A stretch of DNA of 64,000 nucleotides, from positions 1-64,000 of the forward strand of contig JAJPIF010000007.1 in NCBI GenBank assembly GCA_021324885.1, written 5' to 3'. How positions within the stretch are numbered: the stretch's first letter is position 1; every line of letters begins with the position of its first letter. A model generated the notes under the pieces. The model made no database searches, was not told the origin of the DNA, and was given only the letters and a program-made list of their open reading frames with translations. Shown in pieces: positions 5,636 through 62,931 of the stretch. Made by a program: the position numbers and the translations under genes. This stretch comes from Pseudomonadota bacterium. Lineage in GTDB: Bacteria; Desulfobacterota; Binatia; Binatales; Binataceae.

Positions 5636-6808
5636 CTATTTGATAACGGCGGCCGCCCGCAGCTCTTCGATCTCGGAGCGTTCGATGCCGCATTCGCGCA
5701 GGATTTCGTCGGTGTGCTCGCCCAGGCGCGGCGGCATCCGCCGCATCTGCATCGGAGTTTCGGAGAAGCGCGCGGAGCAGCGGTTGGTGCGCACCTTGCC
5801 GACGCCGGGATAGTCGTACATGAAAAAGATTTGGTTCGCGATCACGTCGGCGTCTTCGAACAGCGATTCGTAGGTGTGTACCGGAGCGCAGGGTACGTCC
5901 TGCGCGCGCAGCGCCGCCAGAATTTCGGCGCTCTCCTTCTCCTGGTACAACTGGGCGCTGTTGCGCAGGATGGCCCGCACCCGTTCCATCCGCGTAAGGC
6001 TCTCATCCCACCATTCAGGATGGCCCAGCGCCAGCGCGATGCCGCGATATTGCTCATCGGTGAACGGGCCGACCGAAATATAGCCGTCGCGGGTTTTGAA
6101 CGGCTCGACGGTGACGCTGCGGGGCATCTGATCCTTGAATTCCTCAGGGGGCTGCAGCACGTGGGGAAAGCCGGTGTCGTTGAAGTTGAACGCGATCAGC
6201 GCCTCCAGCATCGGCACGCGGACGTACTGGCCGAAGCCGCGGCTGCGCGCCGCGTGAAGGGCGCTGACGATGCACAAGGCGGCCGTCATCCCCGTGATCT
6301 TGTCCGCCATCGCCATCTGCACGCCCATCGGACGGCCGATGCGCGCGCCCTGCAAATGGGTCAGCCCGGAGTAGCCCTGGATCAACGGATCATAGGCGGG
6401 CGCATTGGCGTTGGGACCGTCGGGTCCGAAGCCGGAAATGGAGCAGTACACAATCCTGGGATTGATGCGGCGGATGTCGGCATAGCCGACGCCCAGGCGA
6501 TCGGCCACCCCTGGGCGATTGTTTTCGATCAGAGCGTCGGCCTTGGCAGCCAGGCGGCGCACCAGGTCCCGTCCGCCGTCCTTGCGCAGGTCGATGATGA
6601 TGCTGCGCTTGTTGCGGTTGAAGGACAGGAATCCCGCGGACATGCCGTTTTTCTGGGGACGACTGAAAGTGCGCATCGTGTCACCTTCGGGCGACTCGAT
6701 CTTGATGATGTCGGCGCCCAAGTCGCCCAGCAGCATCGTGCAAAACGGCCCGGAAATCACCGAGCTGAGGTCCAGGATGCGAAAACCTGCCAATGGTCCG
6801 TCGGTCAT
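5636..6808 (-). CDS. CaiB/BaiF family III CoA-transferase
   Basis: The 390-residue protein transfers CoA between an acyl-CoA donor and a carboxylic acid. The family start is clear (MTDGPLAGFRILDLSSVISG, then GDLGADIIKIE). The catalytic Asp that forms the mixed anhydride is Asp169 in MAMADKITG, the same number as in formyl-CoA transferase. The C-terminal ARLGEHTDEIL-type motif is present as PPRLGEHTDEIL. It faces the amidohydrolase and converges with it. It presumably activates a carboxylic acid for the neighbouring crotonase. It is one of four family III CoA-transferases in this window; this one and those at 47650 and 55408 keep the Asp, and the one at 54199 does not. Confidence 0.92.
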   Translation of the reverse strand: MTDGPLAGFRILDLSSVISGPFCTMLLGDLGADIIKIESPEGDTMRTFSRPQKNGMSAGFLSFNRNKRSIIIDLRKDGGRDLVRRLAAKADALIENNRPGVADRLGVGYADIRRINPRIVYCSISGFGPDGPNANAPAYDPLIQGYSGLTHLQGARIGRPMGVQMAMADKITGMTAALCIVSALHAARSRGFGQYVRVPMLEALIAFNFNDTGFPHVLQPPEEFKDQMPRSVTVEPFKTRDGYISVGPFTDEQYRGIALALGHPEWWDESLTRMERVRAILRNSAQLYQEKESAEILAALRAQDVPCAPVHTYESLFEDADVIANQIFFMYDYPGVGKVRTNRCSARFSETPMQMRRMPPRLGEHTDEILRECGIERSEIEELRAAAVIK

Positions 6809-6916
6809 TTCCTGCCCTTCCTCTGTGCGTCCAATGGATGGGGCTTAGAAGTAACATGCGCGGATTGAGCATGCGAGCGTTGCCTTGAAATAACGCGCGC
6901 GCCGGGCTAAACGATC

Positions 6917-6946
6917 TGGCTTCAGGCAGCCATCCCTGTGTACAAT
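6917..6946 (+). promoter_or_regulatory. Possible tRNA-Leu promoter
   Basis: A good -10 element TACAAT is at 6941-6946, 27 bases before the tRNA 5' end. The -35 region (around 6917-6922, TGGCTT) is weak. The placement suits a tRNA promoter with a short leader. Confidence 0.4.
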
Positions 6947-6973
6947 CAGGTGCGGCAGCGCCATGCTGCGCAC

Positions 6974-7059
6974 GCGAGAGTGGCGGAATGGCAGACGCGC
7001 AAGGCTCAGGACCTTGTGAGGGCAACCTCGTGGGGGTTCAAGTCCCCCCTCTCGCACCA
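6974..7059 (+). tRNA. tRNA-Leu (anticodon CAG), CCA encoded
   Basis: The cloverleaf can be drawn fully. The acceptor stem GCGAGAG (6974-6980) pairs with CTCTCGC (7049-7055). The anticodon stem CAAGG/CCTTG encloses the loop CTCAGGA with anticodon CAG. A long class II variable arm (GAGG, GCAA, CCTC) follows, as expected for leucine. The T stem is GGGGG/CCCCC with TTCAAGT. The discriminator base is A and the CCA end (7057-7059) is encoded. Confidence 0.98.
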
Positions 7060-7415
7060 GTCAATCGGAGCGGCGGTTGCGGCACCAGCCGCTTCATCGC
7101 GTTAAAAGATCGCTCGGAGTTTTGACGATCGACGGGAACTTCCGCTGCCCGCGCGCCAGGTCGAAGCCGCAAGCTCCTGAGCTGCTCTTCAAAGGAGCCG
7201 CGATCGCGGAATGTCTCGTACGCTCACCCTTCGCACCGCGCCTGAGGCGATCTTCGGCGCTCTTCGAGGCGGTCCCGCCATAACCGCCGCTCGATCGCAG
7301 AGGAGGGCTGTTGGAACCTTCGTGGCGTTGGTTGAATCCCGCGCGTTCGTGCCAATATGATCTCCGATAAAATGCCGCGGGCGCGGCCAATCTTCCACTA
7401 ACGGGCTGACACTAC
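7060..7415. other. Intergenic region between tRNA-Leu and valS
   Basis: This is about 350 bases with no convincing gene on either strand. No T-box leader (specifier stem, T-box sequence and terminator) was recognised ahead of valS. Confidence 0.4.
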
Positions 7416-10085
7416 TTGGAATTGAGCAAGACATTCGATCCTAAAATTGCCGAGCGCTGGTACGAGTGCTGGGTGGAGAGGGGCTATTTCACCGCCGATC
7501 CGAAGCGACCGGGTCCGGTCTTTTCGATCGTGATTCCGCCGCCCAACGTGACCGGCCAATTGCATCTGGGGCACGCGCTTAACGTGACGCTGCAGGACAT
7601 CATCGTGCGTACCCGCCGGATGCAGGGCTACAACACGCTGTGGGTTCCCGGCACCGATCACGCGGGCATCGCCACGCAGAACGTGGTCGAGCGCGAGATC
7701 GGCAAAGAGGGCACCAACCGCCATCAGATGGGACGTGAAGCCTTCGAGCGGCGCGTCTGGCAATGGCGCGAGACCTACGGCGGCCGCATTCTCAACCAGT
7801 TGCGCCGACTTGGCGCCTCGTGCGACTGGACGCGCGAACGTTTCACCCTGGATGAGGGACTGTCGCGCGCCGTGATCGAAGTCTTCGTCCGGCTTCATGA
7901 GCAAGGACTGATTTACCGCGAGCGCACGCTGATCAACTGGTGCCCGCGATGCGAAACGGCGCTTTCGGACCTCGAAGTGTCGCACAAGGAGGCGGACGGC
8001 CATCTTTATTATATCCGCTATCCACTGGAGGATGGTTCGGGCGCCATAACCGTCGCTACCACGCGACCCGAGACGATGCTGGGCGATACCGCGGTTGCCG
8101 TCAATCCGAACGACCGGCGCTACCAGGATTTGATTGGGAAGAACGTGCACTTGCCGCTGATCGGGCGCGCGATCCCGATCATCAGCGACGCTTCGGTGGA
8201 CAGCTCCTTCGGCACCGGCGCGGTGAAAATCACGCCGGCGCACGATTTCAACGACTTCGCGATCGGCAAGGCTCACGGCCTGGAGGAGATCGCCGTGATG
8301 GACGGGCGCGGCCGCATGAATGCCGCATCCGGGCCGTATGCGGGGATGGATCGGGAGGAATGCCGCAAGGCGGTATTGCGCGATCTCCAGGCGCAGGGAT
8401 TGTTGGACCAGGTGCAGCCGCATCGCCATGCCCTGGCAGTGTGCTCGCGCTGCGACACCGTGCTCGAGCCGATGCTTTCGACGCAGTGGTTCGTGCGCAT
8501 CAAATCGCTGGCGGACAAGGCGATCGCGGCGGTGCGCGACGGCCGTACCACTTTCCATCCGAAATTCTGGGAAAACACTTATTTCAATTGGATGGAGAAC
8601 GTGCACGACTGGTGTATCTCGCGCCAGTTATGGTGGGGCCATCGCATTCCCGCCTACCATTGTCCGCAATGCGGCAACACCATGGTCGCGCGGCGCCCGC
8701 CCGCCGCCTGCAACCGCTGCGCGTCGATCCACCTGCGGCAGGAAGAGGACGTACTCGACACCTGGTTCAGTTCGGGGTTGTGGCCGTTCTCGACCCTGGG
8801 ATGGCCCGATGACACGCCCGACCTGCGCCGCTACTACCCGACCTCGCTGCTGGTGACCGGCTTTGACATTATCTTTTTCTGGGTCGCGCGGATGATGATG
8901 CTGGGGCTGGAGTTCACCGGTCAGGTGCCATTTCGCGACGTTTATATCACGCCGCTGGTGCGCGACCAGTTCGGCAAGAAGATGACCAAGTCGCGCGGCA
9001 ACGTGGTCGATCCGCTGGAGATCATGGAAACCTACGGCACCGACGCGGTGCGCTTTACGCTGGCGCAGCTCGCGGTGCAGGGACGCGACCTGATCCTGAG
9101 CAACGATCGGCTGGCGGCGTCGCGCGCGTTCGCCAACAAGATCTGGAACGCCGCGCGTTTCGTGATGATGAATGTCGAGGGGGCGCCCCAACCGATCGCG
9201 CCCGTGGCCACCAAAAAACTGGGCCTGGCCGAGCGCTGGATTCTGAGCCGTCTGCGCAATGCCACCGCGGAAATCACCGCCGCGATCGACGCGTACGAGT
9301 TCAACGCCGCCGCCGCCCGGCTGTACCATTTCATCTGGCACGAGTTCTGTGACTGGTACATCGAGTTATCCAAGGAACCGCTGCGCCGTGGCGGGGAGGC
9401 TCAGCACGCGGCCCGGTTCGTGCTGGTCCACGGCTTCGACCAGCTGCTGCGCCTGCTCCATCCGTTCATGCCGTTTATCTCCGAGGAATTATGGCAGCCG
9501 CTGCGGAGCTTTATCGCGGAGCGCAATCTGAGCGCGCACCTGCCGGTAGCCGGCTTTCCGAAAGCCGCACAGGACGATCCATTATCCGAGGCCGAAAGCG
9601 CGGCGATGGCGCATTGCCTGGAGGCCACCGAGACCATCAACAGCCTGCGCGCATTGGTCGGGGTTCATCCGGGTCAGCGGGTCTCAGCGTTTCTAAAACC
9701 CCTGAGCCAGGCCGAAGCGTTTGCCCGCGAGTTCGAAGGCTGGAAGAGCTATGCCGAGGTGATGGCCAAGGCGGAAATCGCGATCGTAATCAACGAAGAC
9801 CCTCAATTGCGCCGAGGCAAGGTTCCTTCGACGCTCTCCTGGGGCGAGGTGCTGATAGAGCCGCCCGCCGGCTTTGATGTAGAAAAAACTCGCGCCGCCC
9901 TCCGTAAGAAGCTGGTCGAATCGCGCGGCCATTTGCAAAAGCACCAGCAGCGGCTGGCCAACGCGGAGTTCCTGCAAAAGGCGTCGGCGGACACCCGCGC
10001 CGAGATGGAGGAGCGCACGCAGGAACTCAGCGGTCAGGTCGGCCTGCTCGAAAAGCAACTGGGCCAGCTGGGCGAGACCGCCTAG
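7416..10085 (+). CDS. valS: Valine--tRNA ligase
   Basis: The 889-residue class I synthetase charges tRNA-Val. The HIGH signature is HLGH at residues 50-53 after PPPNVTGQ, and KMSKS is KMTKS at 522-526. A CPQC...CNRC zinc ribbon is inserted before the second half of the catalytic domain, and the editing domain lies between them. The C-terminus (about 820-889) is the Val-specific coiled coil. The start must be a TTG: an in-frame TGA at 7407-7409 leaves only TTG at 7416 or 7422. The alignment expects MELSKTFDPK, so 7416 is used. It heads the co-directional run valS-nadC-birA. No clear Shine-Dalgarno is seen. Confidence 0.97.
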   Translation: MELSKTFDPKIAERWYECWVERGYFTADPKRPGPVFSIVIPPPNVTGQLHLGHALNVTLQDIIVRTRRMQGYNTLWVPGTDHAGIATQNVVEREIGKEGTNRHQMGREAFERRVWQWRETYGGRILNQLRRLGASCDWTRERFTLDEGLSRAVIEVFVRLHEQGLIYRERTLINWCPRCETALSDLEVSHKEADGHLYYIRYPLEDGSGAITVATTRPETMLGDTAVAVNPNDRRYQDLIGKNVHLPLIGRAIPIISDASVDSSFGTGAVKITPAHDFNDFAIGKAHGLEEIAVMDGRGRMNAASGPYAGMDREECRKAVLRDLQAQGLLDQVQPHRHALAVCSRCDTVLEPMLSTQWFVRIKSLADKAIAAVRDGRTTFHPKFWENTYFNWMENVHDWCISRQLWWGHRIPAYHCPQCGNTMVARRPPAACNRCASIHLRQEEDVLDTWFSSGLWPFSTLGWPDDTPDLRRYYPTSLLVTGFDIIFFWVARMMMLGLEFTGQVPFRDVYITPLVRDQFGKKMTKSRGNVVDPLEIMETYGTDAVRFTLAQLAVQGRDLILSNDRLAASRAFANKIWNAARFVMMNVEGAPQPIAPVATKKLGLAERWILSRLRNATAEITAAIDAYEFNAAAARLYHFIWHEFCDWYIELSKEPLRRGGEAQHAARFVLVHGFDQLLRLLHPFMPFISEELWQPLRSFIAERNLSAHLPVAGFPKAAQDDPLSEAESAAMAHCLEATETINSLRALVGVHPGQRVSAFLKPLSQAEAFAREFEGWKSYAEVMAKAEIAIVINEDPQLRRGKVPSTLSWGEVLIEPPAGFDVEKTRAALRKKLVESRGHLQKHQQRLANAEFLQKASADTRAEMEERTQELSGQVGLLEKQLGQLGETA

Positions 10086-14200: not shown

Positions 14201-16468
14201 TTGACGGGAGCGTCGCCCCCGATTAATTCAGTTTCCAACGGCGGGCTCCGAGGCGGCATGCTGGACGAAGACCCCGAACTTCAGCGTTTGTCTGAAAAAC
14301 GCCGCCGCCGCGAATTGATCGCGGTGGCCGTCGCGGGCTCGCTGCTGGCAATCTTCACGCTCGGCCAGATCACGCTGCCGCCGCTGACCCGGCACACCTC
14401 GCTGCTGTCCAATCTGGCGGTCATCCTGCTCTTCGACCTCAGCTTCCTGCTGCTCGGATTGCTGCTGTTCCTGGTCGGACGCAACATCGCCAAGGTTTTT
14501 TTTGAGCGCCGCCGGGGCCTTATCGGGTCCAAGCTTCAGGCGCGTTTGGTGATCGGCTTTATCGCCGTCGCGCTGCTGCCCAGCGCTTTTCTGCTCTATG
14601 TGTCGGAATCGTTCCTGCATTCCGACGTCGATAGCTGGTTCAATCCTGAATACAAAAAGGTCCTCGACGAGTCGCTGGATATTGCCAAGAGCTACTACCT
14701 GGATTCAGCTAACGACGCTCTGCATTTCGCGCGCGTGCTGGCCGAAAATATCGCCGCCAATGATCTTTTGCTACCGCAGCGCCGGGGCGAGCTGAAGAAA
14801 TTCCTCGAGCACAAGCAGCAGGAGTACAACCTGGGAACGATCGAGGTGTTCTCAGCCGACCGCCGGCTGCTGGTGCTGGTGTTGAGTCCCCAGATTCCCA
14901 CCGGCATCGGGGTTTCGCCCCATTCCGGCCTGCTGGTCGCTACGCTGGCCGGACATGCGACCAGCCGGACTGATTCCTTTGGCCGCTCCGACGTGATTCG
15001 CGGGACCGCGCCGATCTTCGTTTCGCCCGAATCCGACAAGGTGCTGGGCGCGGTTGTGGTCGACTATTTCGTGCCGCGCAGTCTCGCCAAACGCGCTGCC
15101 AGAGTTTCCGAAAGCTTCGAGGAATACGTTCAGTTACGCGCGTTGAAGCAGCCGATCATGCGCAATTATCTGCTCGCGCTCGTCATGATCGGTCTGGTGG
15201 TGGTGTTGTTGGCAAGCTGGTTTGGAATCTTTCTGGCCCGCGGTATCACCGGTCCGATCAAGCTTCTGGCCGAAGGTACCCACGCCATCGCAGCCGGCGA
15301 CCTGACGCATGAAATACCTGCCGTGCGCGACGACGAAATCGGTCATCTGGTGGCCTCCTTTAACCAGATGACTGCCGACCTGCGGGCTTCCAATACAGAG
15401 CTGGAGCGCCGCCGCCGCTATACCGAGACGCTGTTGCGCAACGTTTCGGCCGGAGTCGTGGCGCTGGACCGCGCCGGCCGTATCACGACCATCAATCCGT
15501 GCGCCGAACGCCTGTTGTCGCTCAGTGCAGCCGACGTTATCGGACGCCATTATGCGGTGGCGTTTCCAACCCCGCTGGCGTTGGAAATGGCGCGGCTGTT
15601 CGATAACGGCCTGGCCGCCGAGGGCGAGACCCGCTCGGTGACCCTCGATGAACGCCGCGCCAGCGAGTTGATGGTTACGGCCAGCCCGTTGAGCGAAGAG
15701 GGACGAAATCAGTTGGGCACCGTCTTATTTTTCGAGGATGTCAGTCAAATCGCCAAAATCGAACGGATGGAGGCGTGGCGCGAAGTCGCCCGGCGCATCG
15801 CCCATGAGATCAAGAATCCGCTCACCCCGATTCAGCTTTCGGCCGAGCGCATCCGGCGCCATTGCGCGGGCAACTCAGACCTGATCGACGAATGTACGCG
15901 TACAATTGTCAGCGAAGTCGAGGATTTGAAACACCTGGTGGATGAGTTTTCCACTTTTGCCCGCATGCCGCATCTCAACCCGGTCCCCGGCGACTTGAAC
16001 AGCCTGGCGGAGGAGACCGTGGCGATTTTCCGCGGGGCGAACCGCGATATCGAGTTCCGCACCGAATTGGACTCGGCGCTGCCCTGGATCCCCATCGATC
16101 GCGAGGCGCTCAAACGCGCCTTGGTCAACCTGCTGGAGAACGCGGTGGACGCACTCAGGGGCGAAAACCACGATGGCGCCGGTCCGCCGCGAATCGAGGT
16201 GCGTACGCATCTGGATCGAACCACCGGTGTCGTGACATTGGAAGTGTCGGACAACGGGCCGGGAATCGATCCTGCCCTTAAGACGCGGATTTTCGAGCCC
16301 TACTTCTCGACCAAGCAGCACGGTACTGGACTTGGTCTGGCGATCGTTTCGACCATCGTCTCCGACCATCACGGCTTCGTCCGGGTGCGGGATAACGAAC
16401 CGCGCGGAAGTAGATTCGTGCTGGAATTTCCTGTAAAAGATCAACAATTTTCTCGAATTCTTAACTGA
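14201..16468 (+). CDS. NtrY-like membrane sensor histidine kinase
   Basis: The protein has up to 755 residues. Three N-terminal membrane helices (about 39-58, 70-93, 116-134) are followed by a periplasmic sensing region (135-323), a fourth helix (324-347), HAMP (348-400), PAS (405-515), a dimerisation domain with the phospho-acceptor His535 in the NtrY-type box RRIAHEIKNPLTPIQLSAER, and an ATPase domain with VNLLENAVDAL, DNGPGID and GTGLGLA. All kinase motifs are intact. TTG at 14201 directly follows the previous stop and has GAGG six bases ahead. ATG at 14258 also has a good site, so the first 19 residues are uncertain. The gene is 30 bases upstream of the receiver-LpxC fusion, its likely partner. 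The signal is unknown. Confidence 0.93.
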   Translation: MTGASPPINSVSNGGLRGGMLDEDPELQRLSEKRRRRELIAVAVAGSLLAIFTLGQITLPPLTRHTSLLSNLAVILLFDLSFLLLGLLLFLVGRNIAKVFFERRRGLIGSKLQARLVIGFIAVALLPSAFLLYVSESFLHSDVDSWFNPEYKKVLDESLDIAKSYYLDSANDALHFARVLAENIAANDLLLPQRRGELKKFLEHKQQEYNLGTIEVFSADRRLLVLVLSPQIPTGIGVSPHSGLLVATLAGHATSRTDSFGRSDVIRGTAPIFVSPESDKVLGAVVVDYFVPRSLAKRAARVSESFEEYVQLRALKQPIMRNYLLALVMIGLVVVLLASWFGIFLARGITGPIKLLAEGTHAIAAGDLTHEIPAVRDDEIGHLVASFNQMTADLRASNTELERRRRYTETLLRNVSAGVVALDRAGRITTINPCAERLLSLSAADVIGRHYAVAFPTPLALEMARLFDNGLAAEGETRSVTLDERRASELMVTASPLSEEGRNQLGTVLFFEDVSQIAKIERMEAWREVARRIAHEIKNPLTPIQLSAERIRRHCAGNSDLIDECTRTIVSEVEDLKHLVDEFSTFARMPHLNPVPGDLNSLAEETVAIFRGANRDIEFRTELDSALPWIPIDREALKRALVNLLENAVDALRGENHDGAGPPRIEVRTHLDRTTGVVTLEVSDNGPGIDPALKTRIFEPYFSTKQHGTGLGLAIVSTIVSDHHGFVRVRDNEPRGSRFVLEFPVKDQQFSRILN

Positions 16469-16498
16469 AGGTCCGGAGGAGCAGCCGGCTTTTTTCTG

Positions 16499-17788
16499 AT
16501 GCATATTGAGGGCTGGAACGTGGGAGAAACCGTATTGGTGGTGGATGATGAAGAGCGCATTCGGTCCTCGCTCAAAGGTATTCTAAGCGACGAAGGTTTC
16601 AGGGTTCTCGACACCGGCCGCGCCAAAGCGGTGATGGATATCGTTGCCCGGGAGCGGCCGCGGTTGGTACTGCTCGACGTCTGGATGCCCGACATCGACG
16701 GGATCGAGCTGCTGCGTCGCATCAAGGAGACCGCGCCCCAAACCGAGGTCATCATGATCTCGGGCCACGGCAACATCAACAGCGCCGTCACCGCGACTAA
16801 ACTGGGTGCGGTCGATTTTATCGAAAAGCCCTTTTCGGTTGACGGTCTGCTCGGATCGATCGGGCGGGCGCTGCTTCCCGACACCGCCGGAACGCATCCC
16901 GATCATGGCGGGGTTAAGGTGGGAGCCGAACCGCAGATCGGCGGGTCCGCGGTCTGCAAGACCGTAGCGCAACGCACGATCAAGAAGTCGGTCGTGATTG
17001 GCGGTCAAGGGCTCCATACCGGGCTTAAGACCGGGGTGATTCTGCAACCGGCGAAACCGGGTTCGGGCATTTCCTTCACTCCGCTTTCAGGCGATGTAGC
17101 CGTGCCGGCGAGGGTGGAAAACGTAACCGATACCGGTTACAACACCACGCTGGCCAACGGCGCTTACATGGTCCGCACCGTCGAGCACCTGATGTCGGCC
17201 CTGCACGGTTTGGGAATCACCAATTTGCTGGTCAAAACCCAGGGCGAAGTGCCTGCGCTTGACGGATCGGCGCTGGAGTTCTGCCGCGCCCTGACCGACG
17301 CCGGCGTGCAGCAGCAGGCCGCGCGCATCCAGCCGCTTCGGGTCACCCGTCCGATCGTGGTTGGCAAGGAAAGGGATGGCGCCGAGTACATCCGGGCCGA
17401 ACCGGCGGATCGCCTGGTCGTCGATTACACCCTGATCTACCCGCCCCCGATTGGCGTTCAACGCGTTCATTTTGAGCTGCACAAGCCGGAGGACTACGTC
17501 GCGGAAATTGCTCCCGCGCGCACTTTCGGATTCCTCAAGGAGATGCGCAAGCTGTCCGAGATGGGGCTGGCTAACGGCGGCCGGCTGGACAACGTGATCC
17601 TGGTAGATGACGAAAAAGTGGTAAACACCAGGCTGCGCTTCGCTGACGAATTCGCGCGACACAAAATTCTCGATCTGCTGGGCGACCTTTATCTGACAGG
17701 TCGTCCGGTGATCGGCCACATTATCGCGTCCAAGACCGGCCATTCGGATAACCTTGCGCTGGTCAGGCGCCTGCTTCAGGCGGTCTGA
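16499..17788 (+). CDS. lpxC: Response-regulator receiver domain fused to UDP-3-O-acyl-GlcNAc deacetylase (LpxC)
   Basis: The protein has 429 residues in two parts. Residues 10-126 are a complete receiver domain: acidic pair Asp16/Asp17, phospho-acceptor Asp60 in LLDVWMPDIDG, Ser88 in MISGHG, and Lys110 in IEKPF. A linker of about 30 residues follows. Residues from about 155 to 429 are LpxC, the zinc deacetylase that commits UDP-acyl-GlcNAc to lipid A. Its catalytic residues are all present: Glu229-His230 in TVEHL, Thr342 in ARTFGF, His388, Lys389 and Asp392 in RHKILD, and His415 in KTGHS. LpxC alone is normally about 300 residues. GTG at 16520 (residue 8) has GAGGG seven bases ahead and may be the true start. 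The gene follows an NtrY-like kinase by 30 bases. NtrX normally carries an AAA+ and Fis output; here LpxC takes that place. Direct phospho-control of LpxC is an inference. Confidence 0.95.
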   Translation: MHIEGWNVGETVLVVDDEERIRSSLKGILSDEGFRVLDTGRAKAVMDIVARERPRLVLLDVWMPDIDGIELLRRIKETAPQTEVIMISGHGNINSAVTATKLGAVDFIEKPFSVDGLLGSIGRALLPDTAGTHPDHGGVKVGAEPQIGGSAVCKTVAQRTIKKSVVIGGQGLHTGLKTGVILQPAKPGSGISFTPLSGDVAVPARVENVTDTGYNTTLANGAYMVRTVEHLMSALHGLGITNLLVKTQGEVPALDGSALEFCRALTDAGVQQQAARIQPLRVTRPIVVGKERDGAEYIRAEPADRLVVDYTLIYPPPIGVQRVHFELHKPEDYVAEIAPARTFGFLKEMRKLSEMGLANGGRLDNVILVDDEKVVNTRLRFADEFARHKILDLLGDLYLTGRPVIGHIIASKTGHSDNLALVRRLLQAV

Positions 17789-58728: not shown

Positions 58729-62655
<3,927 letters not shown>

Positions 62656-62931
62656 CGATCCCTCGCGTACCAACAATCCGATCGTGAGAGCCGGGAGAAG
62701 GCAGCAGCGCACCGGGCAATTGAAAACTCTGCGCTGGTGGTGCGAGCTGAAGCGGGCGCCCCCCTAAGCCGTTAACCAAAAATGCTCGCAATAACTATTT
62801 TTTTTCCCGAAAAAGCGCCTCTGAGCAACATAGCCCAAGACTGGGTGGCGTGATCAAAGTTCCCTGGTTGCCCAAAGCATCGCACCAGAGGCTTGCATGC
62901 CGCCAACGCAATTTGAGAAAGAATTGACCCG

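Follow-up and report, generated by a model that had tools for sequence, protein, structure and literature searches.

Response regulators with enzymatic outputs are well established, and these outputs include CheB, GGDEF, EAL, HD-GYP and PP2C. Here, we describe a gene in which a receiver domain is joined in one reading frame to LpxC, the deacetylase of lipid A synthesis, immediately downstream of a gene for an NtrY-type sensor kinase. The gene lies at 16499-17788 of a stretch of 64,000 nucleotides (positions 1 to 64,000 of contig JAJPIF010000007.1, assembly GCA_021324885.1; hereafter the window) from a bacterium placed by GTDB in the class Binatia of the phylum Desulfobacterota. Like the known enzyme-output response regulators, its product carries a receiver and an enzyme in one chain; unlike their outputs, which act on signalling, the output here would be the committed enzyme of an envelope pathway, and the fusion appears, from the sequences of its receiver and LpxC parts, to be new within this group.

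In the passages found in a 2025 review of lipid A regulation, controlled proteolysis of LpxC is presented as the best-known mechanism for balancing lipopolysaccharide (LPS) against phospholipid, and NtrYX is named only as a transcriptional regulator of LpxC (PMC12444477); the words receiver, fusion and response regulator are absent from the text of that review. According to two papers, NtrYX lowers lpxC transcription in Caulobacter, and its loss in Rhodobacter sphaeroides raises lpxC mRNA 8.8-fold and LPS as well, apparently indirectly (PMC12444477, PMC7240162). In Desulfovibrio vulgaris, the response regulator DVU2934 is reported to have the lpxC gene as its single target, and the orthologous operon of S. 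fumaroxidans comes directly after lpxC (PMC3333781).

The locus in the window resembles NtrYX in the kinase domains (NtrY_N, HAMP, PAS, HisKA and HATPase_c), in the receiver motifs and in the tie of NtrYX to lpxC expression, but its output is a deacetylase, without the AAA+ and DNA-binding domains of NtrX. As with DVU2934, a response regulator is linked to lpxC, whereas DVU2934 is a separate transcription factor acting beside a separate LpxC. The fusion shares with ordinary LpxCs the full Pfam profile, the catalytic residues and solved LpxCs as best structural matches, and differs from them in its N-terminal receiver, in mostly having no C-terminal tail and in forming a separate clade. LpxC is likewise fused to a second part in LpxC-FabZ (NCBIfam PRK13188), but there the second part is C-terminal and no receiver is present. 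No receiver–LpxC protein was described in the parts of the literature covered by our search (including PMC12444477, PMC7240162, PMC3333781 and PMC4114195), with an earlier mention in reviews of output domains being possible. A preliminary description of this DNA, made from its letters by themselves, had known of no characterised example; this agrees with the literature searched, although databases of protein domains open to the public may well show the combination.

The fusion gene and its kinase neighbour

The pair and its parts are as follows.

14201-16468, + strand: NtrY-type membrane sensor histidine kinase (Pfam: NtrY_N, HAMP, PAS, HisKA, HATPase_c)
16499-17788, + strand: receiver–LpxC fusion, 429 amino acids (aa), assigned by Pfam; the sole LpxC of the genome
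16532-16852, + strand: receiver domain, residues 12-118, with the acid pair D16/D17, acceptor D60, S88 and K110 and the motifs DVWMP and SGHG
16874-16963, + strand: linker, residues 126-155, unconserved, disordered at 129-149 in the model
16970-17776, + strand: LpxC deacetylase domain, assigned by Pfam, residue conservation and structural matches

The fusion is a single open reading frame (ORF) without internal stops. Its residues 12-118 match Response_reg (PF00072; 104.5 bits, E 4.4e-30), and residues 158-426 match LpxC (PF03331; 290 bits against a cut-off of 27, E 2.4e-86) over profile positions 1-267 of 268; the protein also passes TIGR00325, the LpxC equivalog of NCBIfam, with 248.8 bits against a cut-off of 187.25. 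The acid pair, acceptor Asp, Thr/Ser and Lys of a receiver are all present, and the LpxC part combines the full-length model match with the zinc and catalytic residues, of which we take H230, H388 and D392 to be the zinc ligands and E229, T342, K389 and H415 to be catalytic. The LpxC domain stops three residues short of the protein end, leaving no C-terminal tail. The start could also be a GTG at 16520, as close homologues begin nearer the first strand, and both domains would be unaffected. In a monomer model (mean pLDDT 91.8, pTM 0.84), the receiver forms alternating strands and helices and pLDDT falls below 50 within the linker, at 129-149; the best 50 rows of a Foldseek search with this model were all LpxC entries, headed by solved LpxCs.

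The kinase ORF encodes 755 aa and ends 30 bp before the fusion gene. It carries NtrY_N (42-186), HAMP (344-395), PAS (409-514), HisKA (526-589) and HATPase_c (633-746), all above the curated cut-offs, with NtrY_N scoring 28.5 bits against 23.2, and the first and second of these domains point to a membrane protein with a periplasmic sensor. Among NCBIfam equivalogs the best match was AtoS, at 274 bits below its cut-off of 646, and no NtrY equivalog model appeared in the best 25 of 87 NCBIfam rows. The preliminary description had placed an in-frame receiver–LpxC fusion at 16499, 30 bases after an intact NtrY-type kinase, and had named the receiver and LpxC residues given above; the ORFs, the curated cut-offs of both domains and the kinase domains bore this out, and the residues were found where it had put them.

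A search of the whole genome (4,533,256 bases, 96% complete) returned a single LpxC match, the fusion itself, which rules out a second LpxC as the real enzyme. Two LpxA homologues were present (G000:C27:120331-121092 and G000:C13:155128-155883, with 44% and 43% identity to E. coli LpxA). Because the fusion is the sole LpxC and LpxA is present, the cell seems to be a lipid A maker, apparently by way of the fusion.

We then compared 83 fused proteins, comprising 80 from the window and the retrieved loci plus L143, L144 and L147; L115, with a partial receiver, was excluded where 82 are counted. D16, D17 and D60 are present in 82/82 complete receivers and K110 in 83/83 proteins, while residue 88 is S in 75, T in six and C in two (S or T in 81/83). 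On the LpxC side, E229, H230, H388, K389, D392 and H415 occur in 83/83, and the T342 position holds T in 81 and S in two. Mean identity to the window protein, taken over 39 diverse fusions, was 57.3% for the receiver, 54.2% for LpxC and 8.6% for the linker, and fused receivers keep the phosphorylation site down to about 40-50% identity. The retention of these residues, together with a receiver conserved as much as LpxC, indicates that both halves are under selection, since a passenger is unlikely to be so preserved.

The two kinds of LpxC also end differently. Between the LpxC match and the C-terminus, fused proteins have a median of 6 residues (n = 80), with 12 or fewer in 74 of the 80. The median is 30 in the named stand-alone LpxCs (n = 76), five of which have 12 or fewer, and 34.5 (range 10-38) in 30 stand-alone LpxCs of the phylum; E. 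coli LpxC has 30. Extensions longer than 100 residues occur in eight of the 76 named receiver-less proteins (152-192 aa, a measure of length that does not imply FabZ identity). The C-terminal tail of LpxC is required by FtsH in E. coli, according to the title of a reference in PMC3333781; as the fused LpxCs mostly lack it, another form of control may have taken the place of the usual one.

Distribution of the fusion and the kinase

All counts drawn from match lists (class, phylum, NtrY and Acidobacteriota) are lower bounds. When 148 class genomes, our own included, were searched with the fusion, at least 133 matched through both domains. Another seven were partial, and all seven loci end at contig ends; eight gave no match stronger than 9e-22, which is the level of a receiver, and five of these are less than 90% complete. 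The architecture is thus class-wide and wider than a single locus. The receiver-then-LpxC order, which the preliminary description had proposed to look for in other organisms, was also found beyond the class and the phylum. A stop between the domains, which it had suggested looking for in related genomes, was not seen in the three class genomes flagged for internal stops: in G438 (L301) and G449 (L079) the frame runs without a break across both domains, and G485 has its stop within LpxC.

Continuous fusion matches came from at least 49 of 395 genomes drawn from the phylum, of which the class contributes 16; a further match (G217) is cut by a contig end, and at least 41 genomes have LpxC inside a longer frame of 448-820 codons. 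From 19 of those 41 genomes we retrieved 20 loci (L102-L121). In 18 of the 19 genomes a single frame holds both receiver and LpxC, with an incomplete receiver in L115 (G083). In the remaining one, L111, at 5818-8061 on the minus strand, the receiver (117 codons) and an AAA+-LpxC part (630 codons) occupy successive frames, representing a split gene or a sequence error. Stand-alone LpxCs, in frames of 286-357 codons, occupy the 30 best-scoring LpxC loci of the phylum (L002-L031). Beyond the phylum, one Thermoanaerobaculales genome (L143) and one Terriglobia genome (L147) carry the fusion, and one Nitrospinaceae genome (L144) has it as a longer protein. Among 99 Acidobacteriota genomes at least two have a continuous fusion, and G613 has a 488-codon frame. 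One of the two, G529, carries a stand-alone lpxC as well, in the vicinity of an NtrY homologue, and because fusion and stand-alone gene coexist the fusion there may be a late arrival. The scan of genome contigs yielded at least 80 loci; L142, which appears to come from the same genome as G114/L114, was kept out of trees and counts, and L222-L224 and L227 begin at contig ends.

NtrY lies directly upstream of the fusion in 45/45 class loci retrieved with upstream sequence. These are 39 of the 40 loci L062-L101 (the 40th, L096, has just 60 upstream bases), L225, L226, L228 and L230 (4/4), and L301 and L302 (2/2). In our own genome the adjacent gene is the only full-length NtrY; the next match covers residues 329-746 with 27% identity. 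Genomes in which fusion and kinase lie apart mostly encode an NtrY-like kinase all the same: counting our own, it is present in at least 36 of 38 genomes checked (35 of 37 besides our own) at E 1.3e-81 or better, with 29 of the 36 matches covering nearly the whole protein and seven beginning at residue 124-306. In 20 neighbourhoods where the kinase is unlinked to the fusion, no NtrX-type regulator stands beside it in 19, so NtrY is often without its classical neighbour where the fusion exists. Among these neighbourhoods, L269 shows a weak match to a receiver 2.5 kb from the kinase, on the opposite strand, and L271 has a hybrid kinase nearby.

We reject the idea that NtrY pairs with an NtrX encoded elsewhere in our own genome, since no regulator there scores like NtrX. 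The genome has 23 Sigma54_activat matches, 20 of them strong. Receivers of these sigma-54 regulators score 35-73 bits, compared with at least 93 for complete fused receivers and at least 95 for six NtrX proteins, and their AAA+ domains reach at most 273 bits, compared with at least 318 in four other NtrX proteins with complete AAA+. Among the 16 receiver rows from these regulators, W occurs two positions after the acceptor Asp in two (the same gene twice) and SGH or TGH in none.

Relationship of the fusion to NtrX

Among NCBIfam models, the receiver side of the fusion matches NtrX best (124 bits over residues 11-164, cut-off 600); a whole-protein cut-off is expected to be missed by a protein without AAA+ and Fis domains. 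As Pfam reported neither an AAA+ nor a DNA-binding domain in the window fusion, we do not class it as NtrX. The fused receivers and the six stand-alone NtrX proteins compared have D(I/V/L)W(M/L)P and SGHG/TGHG motifs in common.

Stand-alone lpxC, ntrY and an ntrX whose product has an AAA+ domain follow one another on one strand in L145 (Thermoanaerobaculia), L151 (Rokuibacteriota, where NtrX runs off the contig) and L190, L211 and L214 (titled Deltaproteobacteria). In L158, lpxC is followed by ntrY, and no NtrX was found within the next 2.1 kb. In at least 16 of the 99 Acidobacteriota genomes, an NtrX-like receiver follows lpxC on its strand at a distance of 2.3-3.2 kb, and the order lpxC, ntrY, ntrX on one strand was present in all 16 Acidobacteriota loci retrieved (L285-L300).

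Proteins of about 700-760 aa combine a receiver, a sigma-54-type AAA+ domain and LpxC. Pfam reported Response_reg, Sigma54_activat, AAA_lid_14 and LpxC in six of them, and the last three of these domains in the split L111; a Fis domain was reported in none of the seven scanned. A phmmer search with the NtrX AAA+ domain found it in 11/11 three-domain proteins (L102-L111, L144). GAFTGA and the Walker B DE are absent from all 11, whereas stand-alone NtrX controls have GAFTGA in 4/5 and the Walker B DE in 5/5; the Walker A stretch GxxG(T/A)GKE is retained in 11/11. By eye, a remnant of the Fis helix-turn-helix can be seen in seven (L102-L107, L111) and not in four (L108-L110, L144).

LpxC trees were built from 47 of 82 fused sequences with either 40 of 75 stand-alone sequences or 25 of those 75 plus 33 further ones. 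In the tree of 105 sequences, the 47 fused LpxCs form one clade (SH-aLRT 100) against 58 stand-alone LpxCs, which include 30 from the same phylum, L229, L279 and E. coli; a single fused clade was recovered with the other stand-alone set too. Two- and three-domain forms are intermixed within it. Such mixing within one clade is compatible with a single fusion and later losses of AAA+, although a quick tree cannot settle the order. Taken together, the fusion most likely arose from an lpxC-ntrY-ntrX neighbourhood, in which NtrX would have become joined to LpxC; the sigma-54 contact motif and the Fis domain would then have decayed, and the AAA+ domain would have been lost to leave receiver and LpxC, in a sequence of events reconstructed from present-day forms.

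Predicted control of LpxC and competing explanations

We consider it probable, at roughly two chances in three, that the protein is an enzyme-output response regulator in which NtrY phosphorylates Asp60 and sets the output of the sole LpxC post-translationally. In this scheme, the NtrY-type kinase would sense an envelope or redox signal and phosphorylate the receiver at Asp60; the phosphorylated receiver would change the output of the attached LpxC, possibly via allostery, dimerisation or stability, and lipid A flux would be set accordingly. By analogy with NtrYX, our guess is that phosphorylation might lower LpxC output. The preliminary description had likewise seen LpxC as taking the output position behind an NtrY-type kinase, and conservation, synteny and the evolutionary intermediates strongly favour this; the adjacency on which it leaned holds less well outside the class.

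Several observations weigh against such control. Outside the class, two-domain fusions adjoin the kinase in only 2 of 29 testable loci (L123, L124; L140 has 154 bases upstream only), and three-domain loci do so in 5 of 11; because the kinase is usually not adjacent there, the partnership rests on co-occurrence and the pair need not be an operon. No strong NtrY was found in G239 and G393, which are 68% and 75% complete, and G285 has an ntrY-ntrX pair (L265) besides its fusion. A stand-alone lpxC beside ntrY exists in G208 (L279, G208:C122), as a second lpxC in addition to the fusion, and G252 resembles G208 by positions among the matches listed. Within the class, G510 also has a stand-alone lpxC (L229, 1535-2494, plus strand) on the 3.1-kb contig G510:C171; in G485 the fusion (L302, 677-2062, minus strand), with NtrY upstream, has a stop inside its LpxC part; and G442, G444 and G482, at 92-99% completeness, are among the eight genomes without a match of LpxC strength, where the absence may be true. 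In a receiver tree with 36 of 72 two-domain receivers, the fused receivers group with NtrX and not with the 16 sigma-54 regulator rows of our own genome at an SH-aLRT of only 82. Finally, FtsH gave two strong matches in our own genome, leaving room for proteolysis.

Some of these genomes call for a remark of their own. The fusion of G208 is a divergent receiver–LpxC at L140 (G208:C9), apart from L279. L229 is possibly contamination, and the stop in L302 is either a sequence error or the mark of a dying gene. G393, which lacks the strong NtrY match, carries two receiver–LpxC fusions (L119, L120).

The receiver might act on the abundance of LpxC rather than on its activity, with phosphorylation gating recognition by FtsH or another protease in place of the enterobacterial C-terminal tail degron. 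The short ends of most fused LpxCs (median 6 residues against 30 and 34.5 in the stand-alone sets and 30 in E. coli) fit such a role, given that FtsH needs the tail in E. coli; so does a genome that encodes FtsH and in which an E. coli LapB query finds a weak match only (E 1.4e-4, 24% identity), although one query may miss a distant LapB. Short tails also occur on some stand-alone LpxCs, however, and no degron or adaptor can be named; we regard control of this kind as rather unlikely. We would give still less credence to a receiver that serves as a docking module, bringing LpxC to the membrane at NtrY, or as a phosphate sink tuning NtrY, with little catalytic effect. An unconserved linker that is disordered in the model suggests no rigid coupling, and NtrY is a predicted membrane protein, but a mere docking role would not call for the complete phosphorylation site that the receivers retain, and the kinase and fusion genes are unlinked in many lineages.

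The retention of that site bears even more heavily on the idea of a neutral fusion of neighbours, in which the receiver would be a leftover of NtrX, carried along without regulating LpxC. Decay of the AAA+ and Fis parts makes drift after the fusion real, but the phosphorylation residues stand in 82/82 complete receivers and the receiver is conserved like LpxC, also at about 40-50% identity, which makes a mere passenger very improbable. An assembly or sequencing error joining two genes can hardly be entertained: many of the sources are probably metagenome assemblies and L111 has its receiver in a separate frame, yet the same junction appears in at least 133 of 148 class genomes, including the single-contig genomes G400, G401 and G496. 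A junction made by chance or artefact is refuted by this recurrence in class and phylum genomes.

If the proposed phosphorelay to LpxC is correct, envelope signals would set lipid A production directly and not through gene expression. The balance of LPS and phospholipid in diderms outside Enterobacteria is largely open, and here a biosynthetic enzyme that looks essential and is the sole copy in its genome is wired to a receiver and kept so across a class. The series from lpxC-ntrY-ntrX through a decaying NtrX–LpxC to receiver–LpxC would let one follow how transcriptional control gave way to post-translational control, and it suggests that the tie between NtrYX and LpxC is old. The case is directly testable, with one protein, one predicted phosphorylation site, one kinase and an established enzyme assay, and how LpxC is controlled in nature also matters in practice, since the enzyme is a target for antibiotics.

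Two minor observations concern the phylum and the window. In family f46 of the same phylum, eight genomes of 99-100% completeness (G076, G109, G138, G165, G190, G213, G235 and G256) have no LpxC among the matches listed, and genus g52 of that family has LpxC (G040, G297); the former are candidates for a lineage of this diderm phylum that lacks lipid A. In the window, the neighbours of the pair look ordinary, with an elongation factor G-like GTPase upstream and an SDR reductase and a QueC-family protein downstream, and a 1327-aa open frame at 58729-62712 on the minus strand has a weak kinase-core match (39 bits), perhaps representing a large hybrid kinase.

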